A stretch of 64,000 nucleotides of DNA from Barnesiella viscericola DSM 18177 (GTDB lineage: Bacteria; Bacteroidota; Bacteroidia; Bacteroidales; Barnesiellaceae), in contig NZ_CP007034.1 in assembly GCF_000512915.1 (NCBI RefSeq), positions 2,916,001 to 2,980,000 on the forward strand, given 5' to 3'. The notes beneath the pieces were generated by a model, which searched no databases, was not told where the DNA came from, and saw only the letters and a program-made list of their open reading frames with translations. Position 1 is the first letter of the stretch. Each line of letters opens with the position of its first letter. Shown in pieces: positions 2 through 10,461 of this stretch. Made by a program: the position numbers and the translations under genes.

Positions 2-694
2 GATTTGCTTAATCAATACTTTAGAGAGGCACGAGGTAATAATTATTTTTATGGTGAAATACATGCGGTACACCCAAACCTAAGACCGAATAGTTCGCGT
101 GACGGCTTAACTCACACCCCTGAAGCTATTAAATTGTACGAATATATCCAAGAGTATTTTTCGGATCTGCAAAAGCTTTACCATTTAGCAAACGATGTTA
201 AAAATCTCTCCAGAGATATACATTTGTCAGGGATTTCCACTCCTCAATCCGATAAAGATAGAAAAGAAATTCAAAAGAAAATTTCGTTCTCAGTTGAGCA
301 ATTCGACAAAATAAAAACAAAATATAAGAATGACGATAATATAGGAGAAGCATCAGACAAAGTTTTAGCTATTTATGGTGAAACCATAAAGAAAACTCTT
401 GAGAACTTACCAACCGATATTTTACCGTCTAATGTTACTTCTTTAACAGATAGTGGCGATACGGTTAAGGGTGAAGCTACACCCATTGTTATGCCAACCA
501 CTGCTTTTATCCCGGAAGAAGCGACTCCTTCTGCTGTTACAGATATATTTGCACCTCTAAATAAAAAGTGTACTCCAGAAGAAGTTAAGCTTATTAGAAA
601 AGTTTTTGCAATTCTTTCTCAAAATTGTCCTATTAGTCAGCGTACGATGTTTGAAACAATGAAAGAAAAAGCAATCAAACAACTCTGTAAATAA
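2..694 (+). CDS. C-terminal part of an Hsp90-like (GHKL) ATP-binding protein
   Basis: The frame is open to the left edge (GAT at 2-4), so this is the last 230 residues of a longer protein; the TTG at 5 is probably not the true start. The segment YFYGEIHAVHPNLRPNSSRD near its beginning resembles the block that closes the ATPase/middle region of sacsin/Hsp90-like GHKL proteins (GEIH..L.PN..RD). After it come a lysine-rich, probably coiled-coil stretch (about residues 45-130), a low-complexity Thr/Pro linker, and a helical tail. The stop codon overlaps the start of the radical-SAM gene by one base (TAATG), so the two are probably translationally coupled. The family call rests on one motif; the ATP-binding residues would lie outside the window. 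Confidence 0.55.
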   Translation, partial: DLLNQYFREARGNNYFYGEIHAVHPNLRPNSSRDGLTHTPEAIKLYEYIQEYFSDLQKLYHLANDVKNLSRDIHLSGISTPQSDKDRKEIQKKISFSVEQFDKIKTKYKNDDNIGEASDKVLAIYGETIKKTLENLPTDILPSNVTSLTDSGDTVKGEATPIVMPTTAFIPEEATPSAVTDIFAPLNKKCTPEEVKLIRKVFAILSQNCPISQRTMFETMKEKAIKQLCK

Positions 695-2679
695 TGGCAC
701 GTCCGAAAAAAATAAGAAAAGTATTACTATTAGAACCCAATTATGCAAATAAGTTTCCTCCTATTGGACTTATGAAAATAGCTACATATTATCGCAATTT
801 AGGAAATTGGGATATTGTGTTCTATAAGGGTGACCTCAAAAGATTTATAGTTGAACAAATTAGCGAACATTGTATTGAAGAGCTAACTGAATTTTTAGTT
901 GATATAGATTGGTATCTCAAAAAAGATGTCATTGTTGAATTTATCCGAACTCGAAAAAAAGAATATCTTGATACGTTAGTAGCCGGTAACGCTGAACTAA
1001 AAGATACAATTCTTCCTATATTGTCTTTTTATAAGGATTATTATTGGAAGGGCACGTGGAAAGATAACCCTGAATGGGATAGGGTTTATGTCACGACATT
1101 GTTCACTTTCTATTGGGATATTACTATTGAAACCATTAATTTTGCTAAACTTCTTGTAAAGAAGAAATCTGATTTAATGGTTGGTGGTGTTCTTGCGTCC
1201 ATTCAGCCAAATGAAATATATCAAGCCACGGGAATTAAACCATATGTAGGCGTCCTTCAGACACCTGGACAACTCGACAAAGGTGATACTCAAATAATAG
1301 ACCAGTTACCTCTTGACTATTCCATTCTTGACGAGATTGATTATAAATATTCAATGTCAAATGCTTTTTATGGCTATACAACTCGTGGTTGTATCAGACA
1401 TTGTTCTTTTTGTGCAGTTCCTATTTTAGAGCCGAGCTATCAATCATATATTCCATTAAAAGAAAGAATTAACCTTATTCGTGAGCATTTTGGAGACCAA
1501 AAAGACCTTTTGCTTATGGATAACAATGTTTTAGCTTCTAAAGAATTTCCACAAATAATTCAAGATATAATTGATTGTGGATTTGGTAAAGGAGCGATGT
1601 TTACTCCACCGAATCAACTTGAAATTGCTATTAGAAATCTTAAAGTAGGCATAAACGACCGTGCATATATACGCAAAAGCCAATCTTTGATAATGGAGTT
1701 TTACGGAACGCTTAAGGACGAAGAATCTTTTGAAGTTTATAGGATAATTTCCAAATATCATATTGGGAAACTATTAACCTCAAAGAAAGAAAACATCTTA
1801 TTAGCGTACCAACAAATAAAACCATATTACGACAAACATTTCAAATCGAGTTCTCAGTTAAGGTTTGTTGACTTCAATCAAGGAGTAGATGCCCGCCTTT
1901 TCAATGAGGATAATGTCAAATTATTATCTAAAATAGCTATTCGTCCCCTACGTATAGCTTTTGATAACATCAAGACTTTGCCATTTTACGAAAAGGCTAT
2001 AAGGCTAAGTGTTAACGCAGGACTTAAAGATTTTTCAAATTATCTTCTTTACAACTTTGACGATAAGCCTATAGACCTATATCGCCGCTTAAAAATTAAT
2101 GTAGAGTTTTGTGAAGAATTGAATGTAAGTATATATTCTTTCCCGATGAAATACCATCCCATTAGACCTGACAAAAATGGCGATGTGGATTATTCTCATA
2201 ACAGAGACTTTATTGGGAAGTATTGGAATAGAAAATACATTCGTGCAGTACAAGCCATATTGAATAGTACGAAAGGGAAAATAGGGAAAGGTAAGGCATT
2301 CTTTTACAAAGCTTTTGGAAATGATGAAGATCAATTTTTAGAGCTCTTGGAAATGCCTGAAACATTCATTTTATATCGATTCTTCTTTGAATGGTTGGAT
2401 AATAAACCGGGGGGATTTGGTACTGCTCATTGGCGAAAATGCTGGAACAGATGTATGTCTGAATCATCTGATACAGAAAAGTCGATGTTATTGGATATTA
2501 TTCATCAAAACAAATTTAATTCAGTTTCAGAGCTTAGTGGTTTGTCGCAGCAAGGTCAAGAATTACTATTATATTACACGAACTTCCGCAAAGATATTAT
2601 CACACCAGGAACTGAATTATATCGTTTGAAAAAAGAATATGATAGTAATCCTACGATAAAGTTAAAACGAAAGCTTTAA
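694..2679 (+). CDS. Radical SAM protein, B12-binding-type N-terminus
   Basis: The 661-aa protein carries the radical-SAM cluster motif C233-x3-C237-x2-C240 (TRGCIRHCSFCAVP), which binds a 4Fe-4S cluster and cleaves S-adenosylmethionine. Residues 9-40 (KVLLLEPNYANKFPPIGLMK) match the opening of cobalamin-binding-type domains that often precede radical-SAM domains, and the GGVLAS.QP segment near 164-172 fits the end of such a domain. The SAM barrel seems to contain a long insertion (about 290-380). The C-terminal 200 residues are unassigned. It is the middle gene of a three-gene operon (1-nt overlap upstream, 2-nt gap downstream). The substrate is unknown; a role in modifying nucleic acid or protein is inference from the neighbours. 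Confidence 0.75.
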   Translation: MARPKKIRKVLLLEPNYANKFPPIGLMKIATYYRNLGNWDIVFYKGDLKRFIVEQISEHCIEELTEFLVDIDWYLKKDVIVEFIRTRKKEYLDTLVAGNAELKDTILPILSFYKDYYWKGTWKDNPEWDRVYVTTLFTFYWDITIETINFAKLLVKKKSDLMVGGVLASIQPNEIYQATGIKPYVGVLQTPGQLDKGDTQIIDQLPLDYSILDEIDYKYSMSNAFYGYTTRGCIRHCSFCAVPILEPSYQSYIPLKERINLIREHFGDQKDLLLMDNNVLASKEFPQIIQDIIDCGFGKGAMFTPPNQLEIAIRNLKVGINDRAYIRKSQSLIMEFYGTLKDEESFEVYRIISKYHIGKLLTSKKENILLAYQQIKPYYDKHFKSSSQLRFVDFNQGVDARLFNEDNVKLLSKIAIRPLRIAFDNIKTLPFYEKAIRLSVNAGLKDFSNYLLYNFDDKPIDLYRRLKINVEFCEELNVSIYSFPMKYHPIRPDKNGDVDYSHNRDFIGKYWNRKYIRAVQAILNSTKGKIGKGKAFFYKAFGNDEDQFLELLEMPETFILYRFFFEWLDNKPGGFGTAHWRKCWNRCMSESSDTEKSMLLDIIHQNKFNSVSELSGLSQQGQELLLYYTNFRKDIITPGTELYRLKKEYDSNPTIKLKRKL

Positions 2680-2681
2680 AC

Positions 2682-5102
2682 ATGGATACAACAAAATCAT
2701 CTCAGACGTTCATAGACCCTATCAAAGAGGGTATGTTATCTGTACGTGCGCTTAATTGTTGCAAAAGTATTGGAGTAGAAAATCTCTTCCAATTGTTAGA
2801 ATATGCAAAATCGAATGATTTGTATCATATTCGTAATTGTGGGCCTAAAACAATTTTAGAGTTACAAGACGCTATAAATAGATATAGCTCTGATACTCTG
2901 ATAGATTCAGATAACCAAGATGACGCATTATCGAACTGTTTATCTTCACCAGTAGAAAGAATATTTGATGACTGTGTATTAAATTGCAAGGAAGATGTGC
3001 AGGAGCATTTTCTTAATGTATTTCCAAATGCAAAAACATTATATACGCAGTGTCTTTTAGATTATTCATCTATTTTTTTCCCTTTGCCGAATACCGTTTC
3101 AATAGAAACAGTATTCGAGTGCTGGCAATTGGGGTATGACATCTTTAACAAAACATCGCAAATTATACCACCAAACTTTATCAGCAAAGTTAATTCATTT
3201 GGATCCAAATTATCTAATTGTCTTGGCTTAATAAATGAACATTTTATTGGAGCTAAGGTCGAGTTTATATTATCTCGTTTGTCCGTGTCACTTATTGAAG
3301 TCCTTAATAATGAGTTTGAACGTATAAAAGGACAACTTTCAACGAGAGCAAGAAATATATTAGAAAAAGAACGAATAACCGCTAAAACGATAATACAGTT
3401 TTGTAATGGGCTTGTGGATTATCGTAATATTCGTTGCTGCGGTAAACAAACTGCGTCTGATATCATCGTTGCATACAGCTCTTTCTATGAATTCCTTATT
3501 CAATTAGCAAACTCTTCACCTGAAAAATGTAACGAAATAATCATACGAACTAAATACCAATTTCTTAATGATGAGGAGGCTAAAGAAATAATTCATTTTT
3601 ATGAGGAATATGGTCATCTGCCATTTTTCAAATTAGTCTACTTGTATTTTACAAGATCGAATGATAGACAAGATGTTATTTATGATAGAGCAAAAGGTAT
3701 TACTAAATCCCTACAATCATTAACTGATATTGCGAGTGAATTTTGTTTATCGAGAGAACGGATTCGTCAGATTGTGAGCCATTATTCGCCATCTTCAATA
3801 CTAAATGATATTATGACTTTACTTGATGGTCAATTTTATCCGTTCTTAAAAAAGGATTGTATTAATCCATCAGAAGTATATCCTATTATTTCAAATACAG
3901 AATTTGCACAACTTAATGAATTTTCCGAAGATGCCTTTGTGGGTATATTGTCTCTTTCTAAAGAATTTAAGTCTTTAATTTTTGGGGAGAAAACGCTTAT
4001 TATAAGTACAACGGCATTTGATTCATTCGATTTCGGAGCATCTATCAAGGATATTTCTAACACGCTTTCATCAAAAACGACAGAAGACGTAACATTACCG
4101 ATAAGCATTTTTATTAATAATTACATCATTAACAATTCTTTTTGTTATCAAAAGATAGAAAATATTGTAGCTTATATAGTAAAATATATGTTTGAAATTG
4201 ATGTTGAACAAAATAATAATATCCTGCTAAAACGAAATGCTATTGATGTCGAAGACGAATTCTGCAAAATCTTAGAAAATATTGGCAAGCCTTTATCTTT
4301 TGACGAATTGTGTTTGAGGTTATTAGACTCGCATCCTACAATATCCTATGCCCCAGGGACATTAAGAAGTTTCCTGTTTAATTCTGATAGAATCACAGCT
4401 ATTGGTAAGACATCTATCTATACATTAAAAAAATGGAATGTTAGCAATTTAACTATACGAGGGCTAATTCATCAAATTCTTGAAGAAAGTGATACACCTC
4501 TTTCTCTTGACGATATTGTTGATTTCTTGGCTATCAAAGGACGGAACACAAATAGGAATAGTGTTAATAGTAATATTTTGCTCGATGACAAATATAATTT
4601 TGTGAAATTTGAAGGTGGGTTAGTAGGTCTTGAATCTAAGAAGTATGCTACATCATATATTCAAATCGATCGTTCATCTGTATCTCGTAAATCATTTGAT
4701 GAAAGGATTGTTGATTATCTTGACTATATAGATACAAATCATCATATTCCTTTTGCTTCATCTGACGATGCTGAAGCATCACTAAATCGGTGGTATAATA
4801 ATGTGCTCAAGGGAGTTCTTGATGTTACAGAAGAGCAAAAGAACCGTTTAGAAACAGAGCTTTCTAAGCGAGAAGAATATATAATGACTTCAAGTGAGTT
4901 CTCTTTTATTGAGAAATGTAAAGACTTAAAATATTTTGTAAGTTCCAAATATGAGCTACCAACTAATAAAACAGATGCTTTACTTTATAATTGGTTCTCG
5001 AAAATAAGAAAAAAATCATTTAAGCTTACTCCCAAAAAGGAGAAAGCATATAAAGATTTAATACAATTTCTATCTAATTACGGGTTTTACATAGAAAACT
5101 GA
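2682..5102 (+). CDS. 806-aa protein with RNAP-alpha-CTD-like, sigma-4-like and winged-helix modules
   Basis: I do not recognise the whole protein. Residues about 17-70 (SVRALNCCKSIGVENLFQLL, then RNCGPKTILELQDAI) look like the helix-hairpin-helix of the RNA polymerase alpha C-terminal domain. A second such module is at about 219-270 (LSTRARNILEKERI, then IRCCGKQTASDII). Residues about 347-366 (LTDIASEFCLSRERIRQIV) closely resemble sigma-70 region 4.2. Two winged-helix/HARE-HTH-like segments follow (about 520-585 and 590-655). The tail (about 670-806) has two Trp-centred helical repeats reminiscent of helicase-associated domains. It starts 2 nt after the radical-SAM gene. Several DNA-binding modules and no visible enzyme motif suggest DNA or promoter recognition for the operon; that is inference. 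Confidence 0.7.
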   Translation: MDTTKSSQTFIDPIKEGMLSVRALNCCKSIGVENLFQLLEYAKSNDLYHIRNCGPKTILELQDAINRYSSDTLIDSDNQDDALSNCLSSPVERIFDDCVLNCKEDVQEHFLNVFPNAKTLYTQCLLDYSSIFFPLPNTVSIETVFECWQLGYDIFNKTSQIIPPNFISKVNSFGSKLSNCLGLINEHFIGAKVEFILSRLSVSLIEVLNNEFERIKGQLSTRARNILEKERITAKTIIQFCNGLVDYRNIRCCGKQTASDIIVAYSSFYEFLIQLANSSPEKCNEIIIRTKYQFLNDEEAKEIIHFYEEYGHLPFFKLVYLYFTRSNDRQDVIYDRAKGITKSLQSLTDIASEFCLSRERIRQIVSHYSPSSILNDIMTLLDGQFYPFLKKDCINPSEVYPIISNTEFAQLNEFSEDAFVGILSLSKEFKSLIFGEKTLIISTTAFDSFDFGASIKDISNTLSSKTTEDVTLPISIFINNYIINNSFCYQKIENIVAYIVKYMFEIDVEQNNNILLKRNAIDVEDEFCKILENIGKPLSFDELCLRLLDSHPTISYAPGTLRSFLFNSDRITAIGKTSIYTLKKWNVSNLTIRGLIHQILEESDTPLSLDDIVDFLAIKGRNTNRNSVNSNILLDDKYNFVKFEGGLVGLESKKYATSYIQIDRSSVSRKSFDERIVDYLDYIDTNHHIPFASSDDAEASLNRWYNNVLKGVLDVTEEQKNRLETELSKREEYIMTSSEFSFIEKCKDLKYFVSSKYELPTNKTDALLYNWFSKIRKKSFKLTPKKEKAYKDLIQFLSNYGFYIEN

Positions 5103-7046: not shown

Positions 7047-8276
7047 ATGAAAGTAGAAAAATTTAAGGTGCTGCTCTATCTGAAAAAGAGCGGTCTTGAC
7101 AAATTCGGAAAGGCTCCGATAATGGGGCGAATAACGGTGAACAACACGATGGCACAATTCAGTTGTAAGCTGTCATGTACTCCGGAGTTATGGAATCCAA
7201 GAGAAAGCCGACTGAATGGAAAGAGTAAAGAAGCCGTTGATATTAATGCAAAAATTGACCGGCTCCTGCTTTCTGTCAATTCTGCATTTGATTCACTTGT
7301 AGAACGTAAGATTGATTTTGACGCGACTGCCGTAAAAGAGCTTTTCCAGGGAAGTGTGGAAACCCAGATGACTCTGTTGAAACGGCTTGATATGCATATA
7401 GAGGATATGCGTTCAAGAATCGGTATTGATGTGGCGAAAAGCTCCATGTCAACATACATTTACACCCGCAGGTATCTTGGAGAATTTATTCAAAAACGAT
7501 TCAAGACAAGTGATGTCGCTTTTGGACAGTTGAATGAACACATTCCTTGGGAGTTTCAGAATTATATTCTGAAGGACAAGGGACTTGCGGTAGATACGGC
7601 AAGACATTATCTGGCCATCCTGAAGAAAATCTGCCGGATGGCATTTAAGGAAGGATACGCGGAAAAGCGTTATTTTGTGAATTTCAAACTACCCCAAGAG
7701 CACCGTAAACCACCACGGGCTTTGAGCCGCGAAGATTTTGAGAAGATCCGTGATGTCGTAATACCACCGGAAAGAGTCACTCATAACATAGCCAGAGATT
7801 TATTCCTCTTCGCCTGTTATACAGGAGTCCCATATGCGGATGCGGTTTCAATTACCCGAGAGAATATATACAAGGATGATAAGGGCGATTTGTGGTTAAA
7901 GTATCTGAGAAAGAAAAATGATTATCAGGCACGCGTCAAATTGCTGCCGGAGGCTATCGCTCTAATAGAAAAATATCGTTCGGATGAAAGGGAAGAGCTT
8001 TTCCCGATGATACACCATCCCAATATGCGACGGCACATGAAAGGTTTGCGTGATTTGGCTGGCATAAGCTGTGATTTGGTCTATCACATGGGAAGACATA
8101 CCTTCGGAAGTTTGATAACCCTTGAGGCTGGTGTTCCCATTGAAACAATCAGCAAAATGCTGGGCCATACCAATCTGACTACTACCCAGCTTTATGCAAG
8201 GGTAACTCCTAAAAAACTTTTTGAGGATATGGATAAATTCATCGAAGCAACAAGTGATATGAAACTGGTATTATAA
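7047..8276 (+). CDS. Tyrosine integrase 1 of a tandem pair
   Basis: The 409-aa protein has the three-part layout of Bacteroidales integrases: arm-binding domain (about 1-100), SAM-like core-binding domain (about 110-215) and catalytic domain (about 225-400). Box II is H-M-G-R-H-T-F-G (about 342-349), followed by MLGHTNLTTTQLYARV with the nucleophilic Tyr. At box I, where most tyrosine recombinases have Arg (TGLR), this protein has TGVPYAD, a substitution also known from IntDOT. It is the first gene inside the left att site and is followed 19 nt later by a second integrase, so the pair is probably co-transcribed and together moves the element. Confidence 0.9.
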   Translation: MKVEKFKVLLYLKKSGLDKFGKAPIMGRITVNNTMAQFSCKLSCTPELWNPRESRLNGKSKEAVDINAKIDRLLLSVNSAFDSLVERKIDFDATAVKELFQGSVETQMTLLKRLDMHIEDMRSRIGIDVAKSSMSTYIYTRRYLGEFIQKRFKTSDVAFGQLNEHIPWEFQNYILKDKGLAVDTARHYLAILKKICRMAFKEGYAEKRYFVNFKLPQEHRKPPRALSREDFEKIRDVVIPPERVTHNIARDLFLFACYTGVPYADAVSITRENIYKDDKGDLWLKYLRKKNDYQARVKLLPEAIALIEKYRSDEREELFPMIHHPNMRRHMKGLRDLAGISCDLVYHMGRHTFGSLITLEAGVPIETISKMLGHTNLTTTQLYARVTPKKLFEDMDKFIEATSDMKLVL

Positions 8277-8295: not shown

Positions 8296-9501
8296 ATGAG
8301 AAGTACATATAAGCAACTATATTATATAAACCGTGGTAAAGTCAAATCTGACGGGACCACATCAATCATGTGTCGTATTACAATAGACGGAAAGGCTGTT
8401 GCATTATCGACCGGGTTATATTGCGAGCCGGAAGAGTGGAACAGCAAGAAAGGAGAAGTCAAAAACAACAGACTGAACGGAATGCTTTGTGAATATAAAA
8501 AACGCGTAGATGAAACTTATGCTGAACTATTGAAAGTGAATGGAGTTATCAGTGCGGAACTTCTGAAAACAGCCATGACAGGAACTGCCGACATCCCGAA
8601 GTACATATTACAGGCAGGGGAGGTGGAACGGGAAAATCTGAAAATCCGTTCCATTCAAATAGATTCAACCTCCAGTTACAGGCAATCAAAAATGTATCAT
8701 TACTATCTGGGGGAATACATCCGTTCTCTGGGTAAGGAGGACATGCTTTTTACAGATATTACCGAAGAGTTTGGCGCCAATTTCATTTTGTATCTGAAAA
8801 CAAATTACCCTCATAAACCATCATACCGTAACCATTGTCTTTGCTGGCTGAAACGTCTGGTCTATCTTGCTGTTGACAACGGAATCTTGAGATATAATCC
8901 TTTGGATGATATAAAATATGAAAAGAAGGCACCTACAAAGCTCATGTATATAAGTAAGAACCAGCTTCAGGAGATAATGAGCCATCCAAAACCGGATCCA
9001 CTACAGGAACTTGCAAGAAGAACCTTTATATTTTCATGTTTTTGCGGTTTGGCTTACGTTGATGTACGCAATCTCTATCCGCATCATATAGGTACAACTG
9101 CGGAAGGACGGAAATATATCAGAACATACCGCAAGAAAACAAGCGTTGAGTCATTTATACCATTGCATCCGGTAGCTGAGCAGATTATGTCCTTGTATAA
9201 TACGACAGATGATAGTAAGCCTATCTTCCCGTTACCCATACGGAGTATGATTTGGTTTGAGATACATGAATTGGGATTTTCGCTTCAGTTCAAGCATAAC
9301 TTGTCATACCATCAAAGCCGTCATACTTTCGGTACCATGATGGTTTCTGCCGGAGTTTCCATGGAAAGCATCTCAAAGATGATGGGACATACAAATATCA
9401 AAACTACACAAGGATACGCAAAAGTTACAGATGATAAGATTTCAGAGGATATGGATAAACTGATAAAAAATAGAATTGATACAAAGATATTTACTCGGTA
9501 A
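8296..9501 (+). CDS. Tyrosine integrase 2 of a tandem pair
   Basis: The 401-aa protein is of the same family as the gene before it but clearly diverged. It has an N-terminal arm-binding domain, a core-binding domain (about 115-200) and a catalytic domain ending in YHQSRHTFGTMMVSAGV and MMGHTNIKTTQGYAKV (Tyr nucleophile). Box I reads CGLAYVDV, again without the usual Arg. Tandem non-identical integrases occur on several Bacteroidales elements; whether both are needed here or one directs excision is unknown. The 19-nt spacing and purine-rich leader indicate one transcript. Confidence 0.9.
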   Translation: MRSTYKQLYYINRGKVKSDGTTSIMCRITIDGKAVALSTGLYCEPEEWNSKKGEVKNNRLNGMLCEYKKRVDETYAELLKVNGVISAELLKTAMTGTADIPKYILQAGEVERENLKIRSIQIDSTSSYRQSKMYHYYLGEYIRSLGKEDMLFTDITEEFGANFILYLKTNYPHKPSYRNHCLCWLKRLVYLAVDNGILRYNPLDDIKYEKKAPTKLMYISKNQLQEIMSHPKPDPLQELARRTFIFSCFCGLAYVDVRNLYPHHIGTTAEGRKYIRTYRKKTSVESFIPLHPVAEQIMSLYNTTDDSKPIFPLPIRSMIWFEIHELGFSLQFKHNLSYHQSRHTFGTMMVSAGVSMESISKMMGHTNIKTTQGYAKVTDDKISEDMDKLIKNRIDTKIFTR

Positions 9502-9549: not shown

Positions 9550-10461
9550 ATGGATAGAAAGGTGTATTATATAAATATGCATAACAATATTAATAAATTA
9601 GTAGCATATAATATTAATATTGAAGGCGATTATTTATGTCCTTTGTGTTTGAATACCTACAAAGAACAGGATGTTAGGAATGTACTTACAGAAGAGGATG
9701 TTCCACAACATTCTTTAGGAGGGAAACGTATAGTTCTTACTTGTAAGAACTGTAATAGTACTTGTGGTTCAGAAATAGATATTCATTTATTAAATGCAAT
9801 AAAATTGAGAGAACAACATTTATTCCTTCCTGATGAAAAAAGGAAAATACATATTGAAAAGAATGGTAAAATATTAAATGCAGATCTTCAAGTTGATGAA
9901 GATAGAACAATCAAATTGTTGGTTAATACCAAAAAGAACAATCCGAAAGTATGGGCTGATTTTCATGATAACATATTACTGCCTAATGAATTAGTTAATA
10001 TTGAAGATTTGCCTTTAAAAAGAGATGAACGTAGAATTTCAGCTGCTCTAATTAAAAATGCCTATTTATTGCTTTTTGCAAGAACTGGTTATTCCCTTTT
10101 ATATGATACATATTATGATGATTTAAGAAAACAAATTTTAGATCCAGATGTATTTCATCTCCCTGATAGGTTATGGACTATACAGAATATTTCGATTCCA
10201 GATGGCATATATTTGACACAGGATAATAAATATCGTGGATTTTTTGTAATATATACGCTTGAGCTTAAATTTAAATATCGTGTATGTGTTTTAATACCTA
10301 CTCCTATGATACCGTATTTAGCAGCAACAAAAGAATTAGAAAAAATAGACGCACATACTCGAATAAAAATATTGAGTTTGCCAGATCTTGATTATTTAAA
10401 TAATGATGAGGCCATTAAAAGATTAAGAGAATGGTGCTATAGTTGGAAAATGAAATTATAA
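9550..10461 (+). CDS. HNH-like zinc-binding protein
   Basis: The 303-aa protein has C30-P-L-C33, then LTEEDVPQHSLGGKR (47-60) and C65-x2-C68-N-x2-C72-G. This is the pattern of treble-clef HNH nuclease domains in which EH/DVP..LGGK precedes a second zinc pair; the usual EHVPP reads EDVPQH here, with H54 the likely metal-binding residue. The remaining 220 residues are unassigned and show no membrane segment. Base composition is AT-rich, unlike the mob genes that follow. Position right after the integrases suggests cargo or an integration accessory. Nuclease activity is inferred, not shown. Confidence 0.6.
   Translation: MDRKVYYINMHNNINKLVAYNINIEGDYLCPLCLNTYKEQDVRNVLTEEDVPQHSLGGKRIVLTCKNCNSTCGSEIDIHLLNAIKLREQHLFLPDEKRKIHIEKNGKILNADLQVDEDRTIKLLVNTKKNNPKVWADFHDNILLPNELVNIEDLPLKRDERRISAALIKNAYLLLFARTGYSLLYDTYYDDLRKQILDPDVFHLPDRLWTIQNISIPDGIYLTQDNKYRGFFVIYTLELKFKYRVCVLIPTPMIPYLAATKELEKIDAHTRIKILSLPDLDYLNNDEAIKRLREWCYSWKMKL

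Follow-up and report, generated by a model that had tools for sequence, protein, structure and literature searches.

A NurA-HerA-GHKL-radical-SAM gene unit from Barnesiella viscericola and its relatives: an apparently undescribed, defence-like mobile system

Background

At the left end of a stretch of the Barnesiella viscericola DSM 18177 genome, genes for an Hsp90/GHKL-type ATPase, a radical-SAM enzyme and a DNA-binding protein with modules resembling the RNA polymerase alpha C-terminal domain (alpha-CTD) and sigma region 4 follow one another, raising the question of what system they belong to and what that system might do. An initial annotation of the sequence had suggested that these three coupled genes constitute an undescribed system carried as cargo on an integrative element. 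The window, that is the whole stretch of 64,000 nucleotides that was analysed, corresponds to G000:C1:2916001-2980000 on a 3.08-Mb contig (NZ_CP007034.1); genes to its left are given in the coordinates of the extended locus L003, position 10001 of which is window base 1.

The three coupled genes close a five-gene operon

The three open reading frames (ORFs) all lie on the forward strand, at 2-694, 694-2679 and 2682-5102, and are coupled as had been described: the TAA stop codon of the GHKL gene (692-694) overlaps the ATG of the radical-SAM gene (694-696) by 1 base, and the radical-SAM stop codon TAA (2677-2679) is separated by a 2-nt gap from the ATG of the third gene at 2682. The first ORF is open at its 5' end and supplies only the C-terminal 230 residues of the GHKL protein, the rest of which lies left of the window; the full forward-strand gene, coding for 542 residues, occupies G000:C1:2915066-2916694 (L003:9066-10694), so that its start lies 935 bases to the left of the first window base. 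Extension to the left completed this gene and also brought to light further partners on the same strand. These are a NurA-like gene, read as an upstream ORF at L003:4485-5789, for which the starts of relatives suggest a true start about 43 codons inside the ORF, and a HerA gene in two parts, the N-terminal part being contained in the ORF at L003:5792-6229, upstream of an insertion sequence (IS), and the remainder at L003:7712-9073, downstream of it. The three coupled ORFs thus form the 3' part of an operon of five genes, in the order NurA-HerA-GHKL-radical SAM-third gene, and on the upstream gene content we reject an ordinary restriction or chaperone operon.

Four of the five genes form a conserved unit

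We collected radical-SAM loci by a scan of genome contigs, retaining the best 80 of 526 relatives, and the counts below cover the nearer part of the family; addition of 2 viral contigs, 5 other loci and the window's own locus gave a set of 88. Gene order was examined in the 72 loci, excluding the window, with at least 5.2 kb of sequence upstream of the radical-SAM gene. In 71 of these the genes for NurA, HerA, GHKL and radical SAM follow one another in this order on one strand, with median intergenic gaps of 1, 2 and -4 nt. Neighbouring genes are no more than 100 nt apart in 71/71 loci for NurA/HerA, 68/71 for HerA/GHKL and 66/71 for GHKL/radical SAM, the remaining cases showing inserted genes or larger gaps. 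The pairwise identities of the four proteins are correlated at 0.74-0.97 across 74 loci. Over the 20 loci in which it was compared, mean identity falls from HerA (0.79) through radical SAM (0.70) and NurA (0.69) to GHKL (0.47) and the third protein (0.29), the last two being the fastest-diverging of the set. Core genes that are short despite lying away from the locus ends are few: 1 of 79 for HerA, 1 of 80 for GHKL, 0 of 75 for NurA and 0 of 88 for radical SAM.

The third gene was found in only 23 of the 88 loci, a lower bound since some loci stop shortly past the radical-SAM gene. Of the proposed co-inheritance of three families, the association of GHKL with radical SAM is accordingly borne out by the 71 of 72 loci and that of the third gene is not. 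We therefore reject the three-gene system, its third member being present in 23/88 loci whereas the four upstream genes travel together; what survives of the original proposal is a multi-gene, horizontally moving and apparently undescribed system, with the NurA-HerA-GHKL-radical SAM set as its unit.

The distribution of this unit was followed in two surveys, of 395 genomes of the phylum and 345 genomes of the class, which have the window's genome in common, along with a few others that were drawn twice. In the phylum survey the radical-SAM protein was detected (E <= 0.001) in 10 genomes, with long matches in five (the window's genome, G140, G185, G277 and G371), a fragment in one and short, weak matches in four. 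The HerA profile (E <= 1e-20) recovered six genomes, namely the five with long radical-SAM matches and G183, in which HerA stands, as judged by eye, next to SbcC/SbcD-like genes (L192). In the class survey (E <= 1e-60), HerA and radical SAM were found in an identical set of four genomes; the three that are new in this survey have all four genes, with GHKL split in one of them (G682). Both surveys combined yield 8 distinct genomes with a full-length radical SAM and a strong HerA, and among 98 genomes from the order of G185, HerA was found in that genome only. The spread of the unit is rare and patchy, and its four genes travel between bacteria together. Viral contigs scanned with the single radical-SAM protein gave no relative, and a profile scan of them gave 40 loci, the longer matches being L106-L121.

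The insertion sequence and the mobile context

The IS that splits HerA encodes a DDE transposase and spans 1594 bp to the left of the window (L003:6105-7698, equivalent to G000:C1:2912105-2913698). Its terminal inverted bases match at 14 of 15 positions and it is flanked by a TTATA target duplication; the genome holds three copies, that in HerA included, each 100% identical over 1594 bases. Because it interrupts HerA, the copy of the operon found here is probably inactive, though the downstream genes remain open.

That these genes are cargo on an integrative element, as had been proposed, is plausible given two tyrosine recombinases at window positions 7047-8276 and 8296-9501, an ORF at L003:2905-4218 judged by eye to be integrase-like, and the low GC content of the operon (0.339 without the IS, against 0.505 in the window at 20-64 kb). 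Directly past the two recombinases, at window 9550-10461, lies a gene for an HNH_5-type protein (E 9.8e-5, below the cut-off). Across the other loci, neighbours were scanned against PADLOC and Pfam, covering on the upstream side 122 of 123 proteins and on the downstream side 128 of 133 (at most two of at least 170 residues per side per locus). The 25 commonest families listed include RhuM, Fic, Schlafen-AlbA, HipA, relaxase and resolvase, which lend weak support to a mobile or defensive setting.

The HerA, NurA-like and GHKL proteins

The HerA family profile matches the HerA of Deinococcus (PDB: 7f6d) at E 3.3e-50, and in PADLOC the C-terminal part of the protein retrieved, weakly, HerA-type models only, namely mad8 (E 7e-7) and HerA (E 4.4e-4). 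In hhalign the NurA-like protein matches, at 99.6% (E 9e-25), a protein from a Marinitoga virus that bears the annotation of a Rad50/Mre11-associated exonuclease. Residues D79, E205, D227 and H365 are invariant in 19 sequences of this family, and the conserved acidic ones may correspond to the catalytic residues of NurA. The full 542-residue GHKL protein matches HATPase_c_3 at E 8.4e-9. Its family profile matches HtpG at E 7.4e-14, this similarity being confined to profile residues 11-135, so that the middle and C-terminal domains of HtpG are unmatched; the residues of the ATP-binding motifs (E34, N38, D41, D75, G79 and G107) are invariant in 18 sequences.

We regard it as likely that HerA and NurA provide the effector arm of the system, in which a HerA translocase and a NurA-like nuclease would together destroy DNA. 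DNA ends are the substrate of the HerA-NurA pairs found in archaea and Deinococcus. This role, the position of the operon amid recombinases, and the presence of HerA, NurA and a radical-SAM homologue in a Marinitoga virus would also suit an operon for DNA-end processing or repair that serves the transfer or replication of a mobile element and has no part in defence. Against such a role, the unit leaves no room for Mre11/Rad50 between its genes in most of the 71 loci, given the adjacency of HerA/GHKL in 68 and of GHKL/radical SAM in 66 of them, although the flanks were not searched for these two proteins; the genes that are inserted, where present, are AAA15, a protein of ~280 residues, one of ~330 residues, and GHKL. 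Moreover, the same-phylum genome G183 holds a different HerA beside the SbcC/SbcD-like genes noted by eye above, and both the interchangeable accessory modules described below and the loss of HerA to an IS suit defence better. A pure end-processing or repair role accordingly appears distinctly improbable.

The radical-SAM enzyme

The radical-SAM gene (694-2679, forward strand) encodes 661 residues, forming a Rossmann N-terminal domain of the B12-binding type, a radical-SAM barrel and a helical C-terminus. The CX3CX2C motif for a [4Fe-4S] cluster, which the initial annotation had placed correctly at C233, C237 and C240 (1390-1413, forward strand), is invariant in 62/62 aligned homologues, and these are the only invariant cysteines among the 62 sequences. 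The family further possesses two motifs of its own, DNN (276-278) and DFNQGxDAR (393-401). The AlphaFold2 model (pLDDT 91.5), in which the Rossmann domain precedes the barrel, retrieved in Foldseek TsrM (PDB: 6wte, E 2.8e-8) as the best match, followed by AprD4 (PDB: 6fd2, E 5.5e-6) and MtaB, all three at E <= 6e-5, and RimO at E 1.1e-3; the TM-scores of these matches are modest, at 0.3-0.4 by query length. AprD4 has the B12-type fold but is not known to bind cobalamin. A methylthiotransferase of the MiaB/RimO type was rejected, as the family has no invariant N-terminal cysteines for a second [4Fe-4S] site and TIGR00089 scores 14.7 bits against a cut-off of 251; a viperin-like role was likewise set aside, the fold match standing at only E 0.27.

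Shorter relatives occur in viruses. Proteins of ~260-370 residues with DNN and DFNQGxDAR-like motifs are encoded at L025, L179-L181 and L122-L145, and among the short viral homologues listed DNN is kept in 7/7 and DFNQGxDAR is exact in 4/7 and slightly altered in 3/7. Five annotated phage regions with a short homologue were examined: three encode a DNA methyltransferase next to it or at most ~3 kb away, and two show none. DNA methyltransferase genes are seen in L025, L179 and L180 and PAPS-reductase genes in L025 and L180, with L181 showing neither. In Marinitoga camini virus 1 (L023:5860-9686) the radical-SAM homologue adjoins genes for HerA and a NurA-like protein, which lie on the other strand.

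It is possible that the radical-SAM protein makes or removes a DNA modification, as had been suggested. The company of some of the phage homologues, together with the partners resembling DndB and ParB in the second layout described below, inclines us toward a nucleic-acid substrate, if only tentatively, with the chance falling somewhat short of even. The fold neighbours act on tryptophan (TsrM), a sugar (AprD4), tRNA (MtaB) and ribosomal protein S12 (RimO), which also agrees with an enzyme of the same defence system that acts on a protein (one of its partners GHKL, HerA and NurA, or a protein of the phage) or produces a small antiviral molecule. The pairing of radical SAM with GHKL in both layouts would fit an enzyme-partner couple, and the high variability of GHKL also speaks for this alternative. 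Short phage homologues nevertheless lie amid DNA-processing genes, with the DNA methyltransferases mentioned above in three of five annotated regions and not in two, and the fold, with its poor match to viperin, does not suggest a viperin-like role; a protein or small-molecule role thus seems rather unlikely.

The third protein and its RNA-polymerase-like modules

The third gene (2682-5102, forward strand), identified by its ORF and Pfam matches, is the fifth gene of the operon in one clade and encodes 806 residues. RNA_pol_A_CTD is detected in the product at E 1.5e-8, above the Pfam cut-off, and Sigma70_r4 in this protein alone is weak (E 0.073). Among 21 family members (Pfam E <= 0.1) alpha-CTD is found in 20, Sigma70_r4 in 18, HARE-HTH in 5 and HA in 4, and neither the alpha N-terminal domain nor sigma regions 2 or 3 appear among their Pfam families. 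The alpha-CTD module (residues 19-65; 2736-2876, forward strand) is identical at 23 of 46 positions to the alpha-CTD of the RpoA of the same genome. At the positions corresponding to E. coli R265, N268, G296, K298 and E302 its residues are unchanged, and T stands in place of S299; we take these positions to be those that contact DNA. A helix-turn-helix (HTH) resembling sigma region 4.2 (residues 339-364, containing SRERIRQI; 3696-3773, forward strand) shares 12 of 26 residues with region 4 of the genome's sigma-A. Further toward the C-terminus lie a HARE-HTH-like winged helix (residues 591-651; 4452-4634, forward strand; Pfam E 0.0084, below cut-off) and two helical HA-like (helicase-associated) repeats (residues 672-799; 4695-5078, forward strand), the latter judged from the family alignment and helical in the predicted model; HA itself matches 4/21 family members, at best with E 9.1e-4, and leaves the window protein unmatched.

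Comparison with the RpoA of the window's genome revealed 35 alpha-CTD modules scoring at least 45 in 22 of 23 proteins, the top score in 23 shuffled proteins being 44. Identity reaches 37 of 60 residues, and the positions of R265, N268, G296, K298 and E302 are kept in 31, 29, 35, 31 and 35 of the 35 modules respectively. The predicted structure is of moderate quality (pLDDT 79.7, pTM 0.50) and gave no Foldseek match at E <= 0.001, the RNA-polymerase sigma chains at E 0.05 and weaker being suggestive only; the domain assignments consequently rest on sequence. The reported union of alpha-CTD modules and a sigma-4-like HTH is hence upheld by Pfam matches across the family and by the RpoA and sigma-A alignments, and the comparison of structures that had been proposed did not add to it.

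We consider the chances about even that this protein is a DNA reader. Its DNA-binding, RNA-polymerase-like modules and its not being found in 65 of the 88 loci would also agree with a mere autoregulator of the operon, standing outside the mechanism. However, the presence of the third gene requires only 2 changes on a radical-SAM tree built by a quick method (shuffled mean 20.7, with 0 of 500 shufflings as low), a length of 704-1105 residues is large for a regulator, and a relative adjoins a DndD gene and a DndE-HerA fusion, all of which makes the autoregulator unlikely. The gene is an add-on confined to one part of the radical-SAM tree, gain and loss being indistinguishable. In the 395-genome survey, long matches outside the window were seen only in G084 and G160, the others covering ~50 residues of RpoA. 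In G084 (L190:7750-13798) a relative of 734 residues is followed by DndD (TIGR03185, 272 bits, over the cut-off) and a DndE-HerA fusion (PF08870, 38 bits; DptH, PDB: 7es4, E 2.5e-14), so that a reader-like protein is here paired with a different HerA machine; the genes surrounding the relative in G160 are unmatched to the four-gene system.

Phage T4 early in infection targets the host alpha-CTD, whose Arg265 is modified by Alt and ModA, and region 4 of sigma-70, to which AsiA binds (PMC2988021). As the third protein displays both of these RNA-polymerase surfaces, it might conceivably be an integrated decoy: a takeover factor striking it would flip the GHKL switch and free HerA-NurA, with the radical-SAM enzyme marking self DNA. 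This is a long shot; if true, it would represent a bacterial transcription-hijack sensor made from RNA-polymerase parts and wired to a radical-SAM restriction machine.

Accessory modules and a second layout

Other clades carry different additions to the unit. In 10 loci radical SAM is followed by a gene of a ~340-residue cluster, represented in two cases by a member of 206 residues; a pair of AAA15 and a ~280-residue protein is present in 5 loci, with a second GHKL in 3 of them; and a pair of GHKL and a ~330-residue protein is present in 3 loci. A second layout, found on alphaproteobacterial plasmids and viral contigs (L018-L021, L024, L111-L121 and L189), has a shorter radical-SAM protein, mostly of ~545 residues, without HerA-NurA. 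Among its 19 loci GHKL follows radical SAM in 15. Genes for a DEAD helicase and a ParB-like protein lie nearby in 10 loci, while 7 have a DGQHR/DndB-like gene and 4 a PIN-GHKL pair. As the second layout keeps the pair of radical SAM and GHKL without HerA-NurA, this pair is the heart common to both layouts.

A possible function

The operon looks like an apparently undescribed defence-like system of putative function. A role in defence is quite likely: the unit is rare and patchily spread, lies in a mobile context, is low in GC and carries interchangeable modules, its HerA is kin to defence HerAs, and the parts putatively responsible for recognition diverge fast. The explanation we favour as a whole, that of a mobile anti-invader system, is held with only slightly better than even confidence. 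Under it, HerA and the NurA-like nuclease would form the arm that destroys DNA, and the Hsp90/GHKL protein would be an ATP-driven conformational switch licensing them. The radical-SAM enzyme would carry out a one-electron modification, for which DNA or nucleotides are the most likely substrate and which would serve to mark self or to tag the target. In the clade to which this genome belongs, recognition would fall to the RNA-polymerase-like DNA-binding protein, probably acting on promoter-like DNA. With such an arrangement the loss of the nuclease arm may be tolerable while the modifier stays, and the state of this locus, with HerA lost and radical SAM intact, fits what a modification-restriction pair would allow.

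Several observations weigh against this explanation. The loci were collected through the radical-SAM protein, and the census of broken genes is therefore biased toward an intact radical SAM. One locus, L100, is the sole exception to the conserved order, its radical-SAM gene being the only one of the four present, and in G260 a radical-SAM fragment lies on an 11-kb contig without other genes of the unit. The four-gene core contains no methylase-like or specificity gene. The Pfam NurA model PF09376 has no match at the locus in any of five genomes, and the nearest solved NurA (PDB: 7f6d) is reached only at E 0.33. Finally, the flanks of the loci also hold housekeeping genes such as PCRF and dihydroorotate dehydrogenase.

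If the role is indeed defence, radical-SAM chemistry and a GHKL switch enter HerA-based DNA destruction, a combination not found in the model library and literature searched, and the third protein offers a case of RNA-polymerase parts reused for recognition or as bait. Clear points for dissection are offered by the near-strict unit of four genes, by the modules added to it and by the second layout, and a new nucleic-acid modification could follow.

Comparison with known systems

No description of the NurA-HerA-GHKL-radical SAM set was found in the literature searched, subscription papers and preprints being mostly outside its coverage, and no PADLOC model matches the radical-SAM or the third protein at E <= 1. 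With the HerA-NurA pair of archaea and Deinococcus the unit shares the HerA family (PDB: 7f6d, E 3.3e-50) and a NurA-like nuclease encoded in a tight gene pair. It differs from the archaeal Mre11-Rad50-HerA-NurA set in having GHKL and radical SAM, with no Mre11/Rad50 between the genes in most loci, and from archaeal-type NurA in a nuclease too diverged for its own Pfam model.

The HerA defence systems (HerA-DUF4297, HerA-Sir2, DndFGH, 'HerA-FtsK capture' and MADS) likewise place a HerA translocase and a nuclease on mobile DNA, with DUF4297, Sir2 or a restriction endonuclease as effectors. The MADS operon includes a methyltransferase and a specificity subunit; the five operon genes contain no MADS-type methyltransferase or specificity domain, and only the HerA-type match to mad8 connects the two. 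The domain content of these five genes also shows none of the multi-domain proteins DndF, DndG and DndH. The closest account found is that of the HerA-FtsK capture systems in PMC10853773, which counts among them DndE-HerA beside a DndD-related ATPase; the paper also notes a sigma-factor-related HTH in some DndH, and its passages on such systems contain no set of GHKL and radical SAM. One relative of the third protein adjoins a layout like that Dnd variant with DndD and DndE-HerA (PMC10853773), whereas the NurA-HerA-GHKL-radical SAM core is without DndD and DndE.

TsrM, AprD4 and the MiaB/RimO/MtaB enzymes likewise combine a Rossmann N-terminal domain with a radical-SAM barrel; compared with these B12-type and methylthiotransferase-like enzymes, the present family has three invariant cysteines only, motifs of its own and scores far below the family cut-offs. 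The third protein, for its part, resembles the alpha-CTD of RNA polymerase, with up to 37/60 residues identical and the DNA-contact positions mostly conserved, but departs from the alpha and sigma subunits in having neither the alpha N-domain nor sigma regions 2/3 and in the fusion of its modules to winged helices and HA-like repeats.

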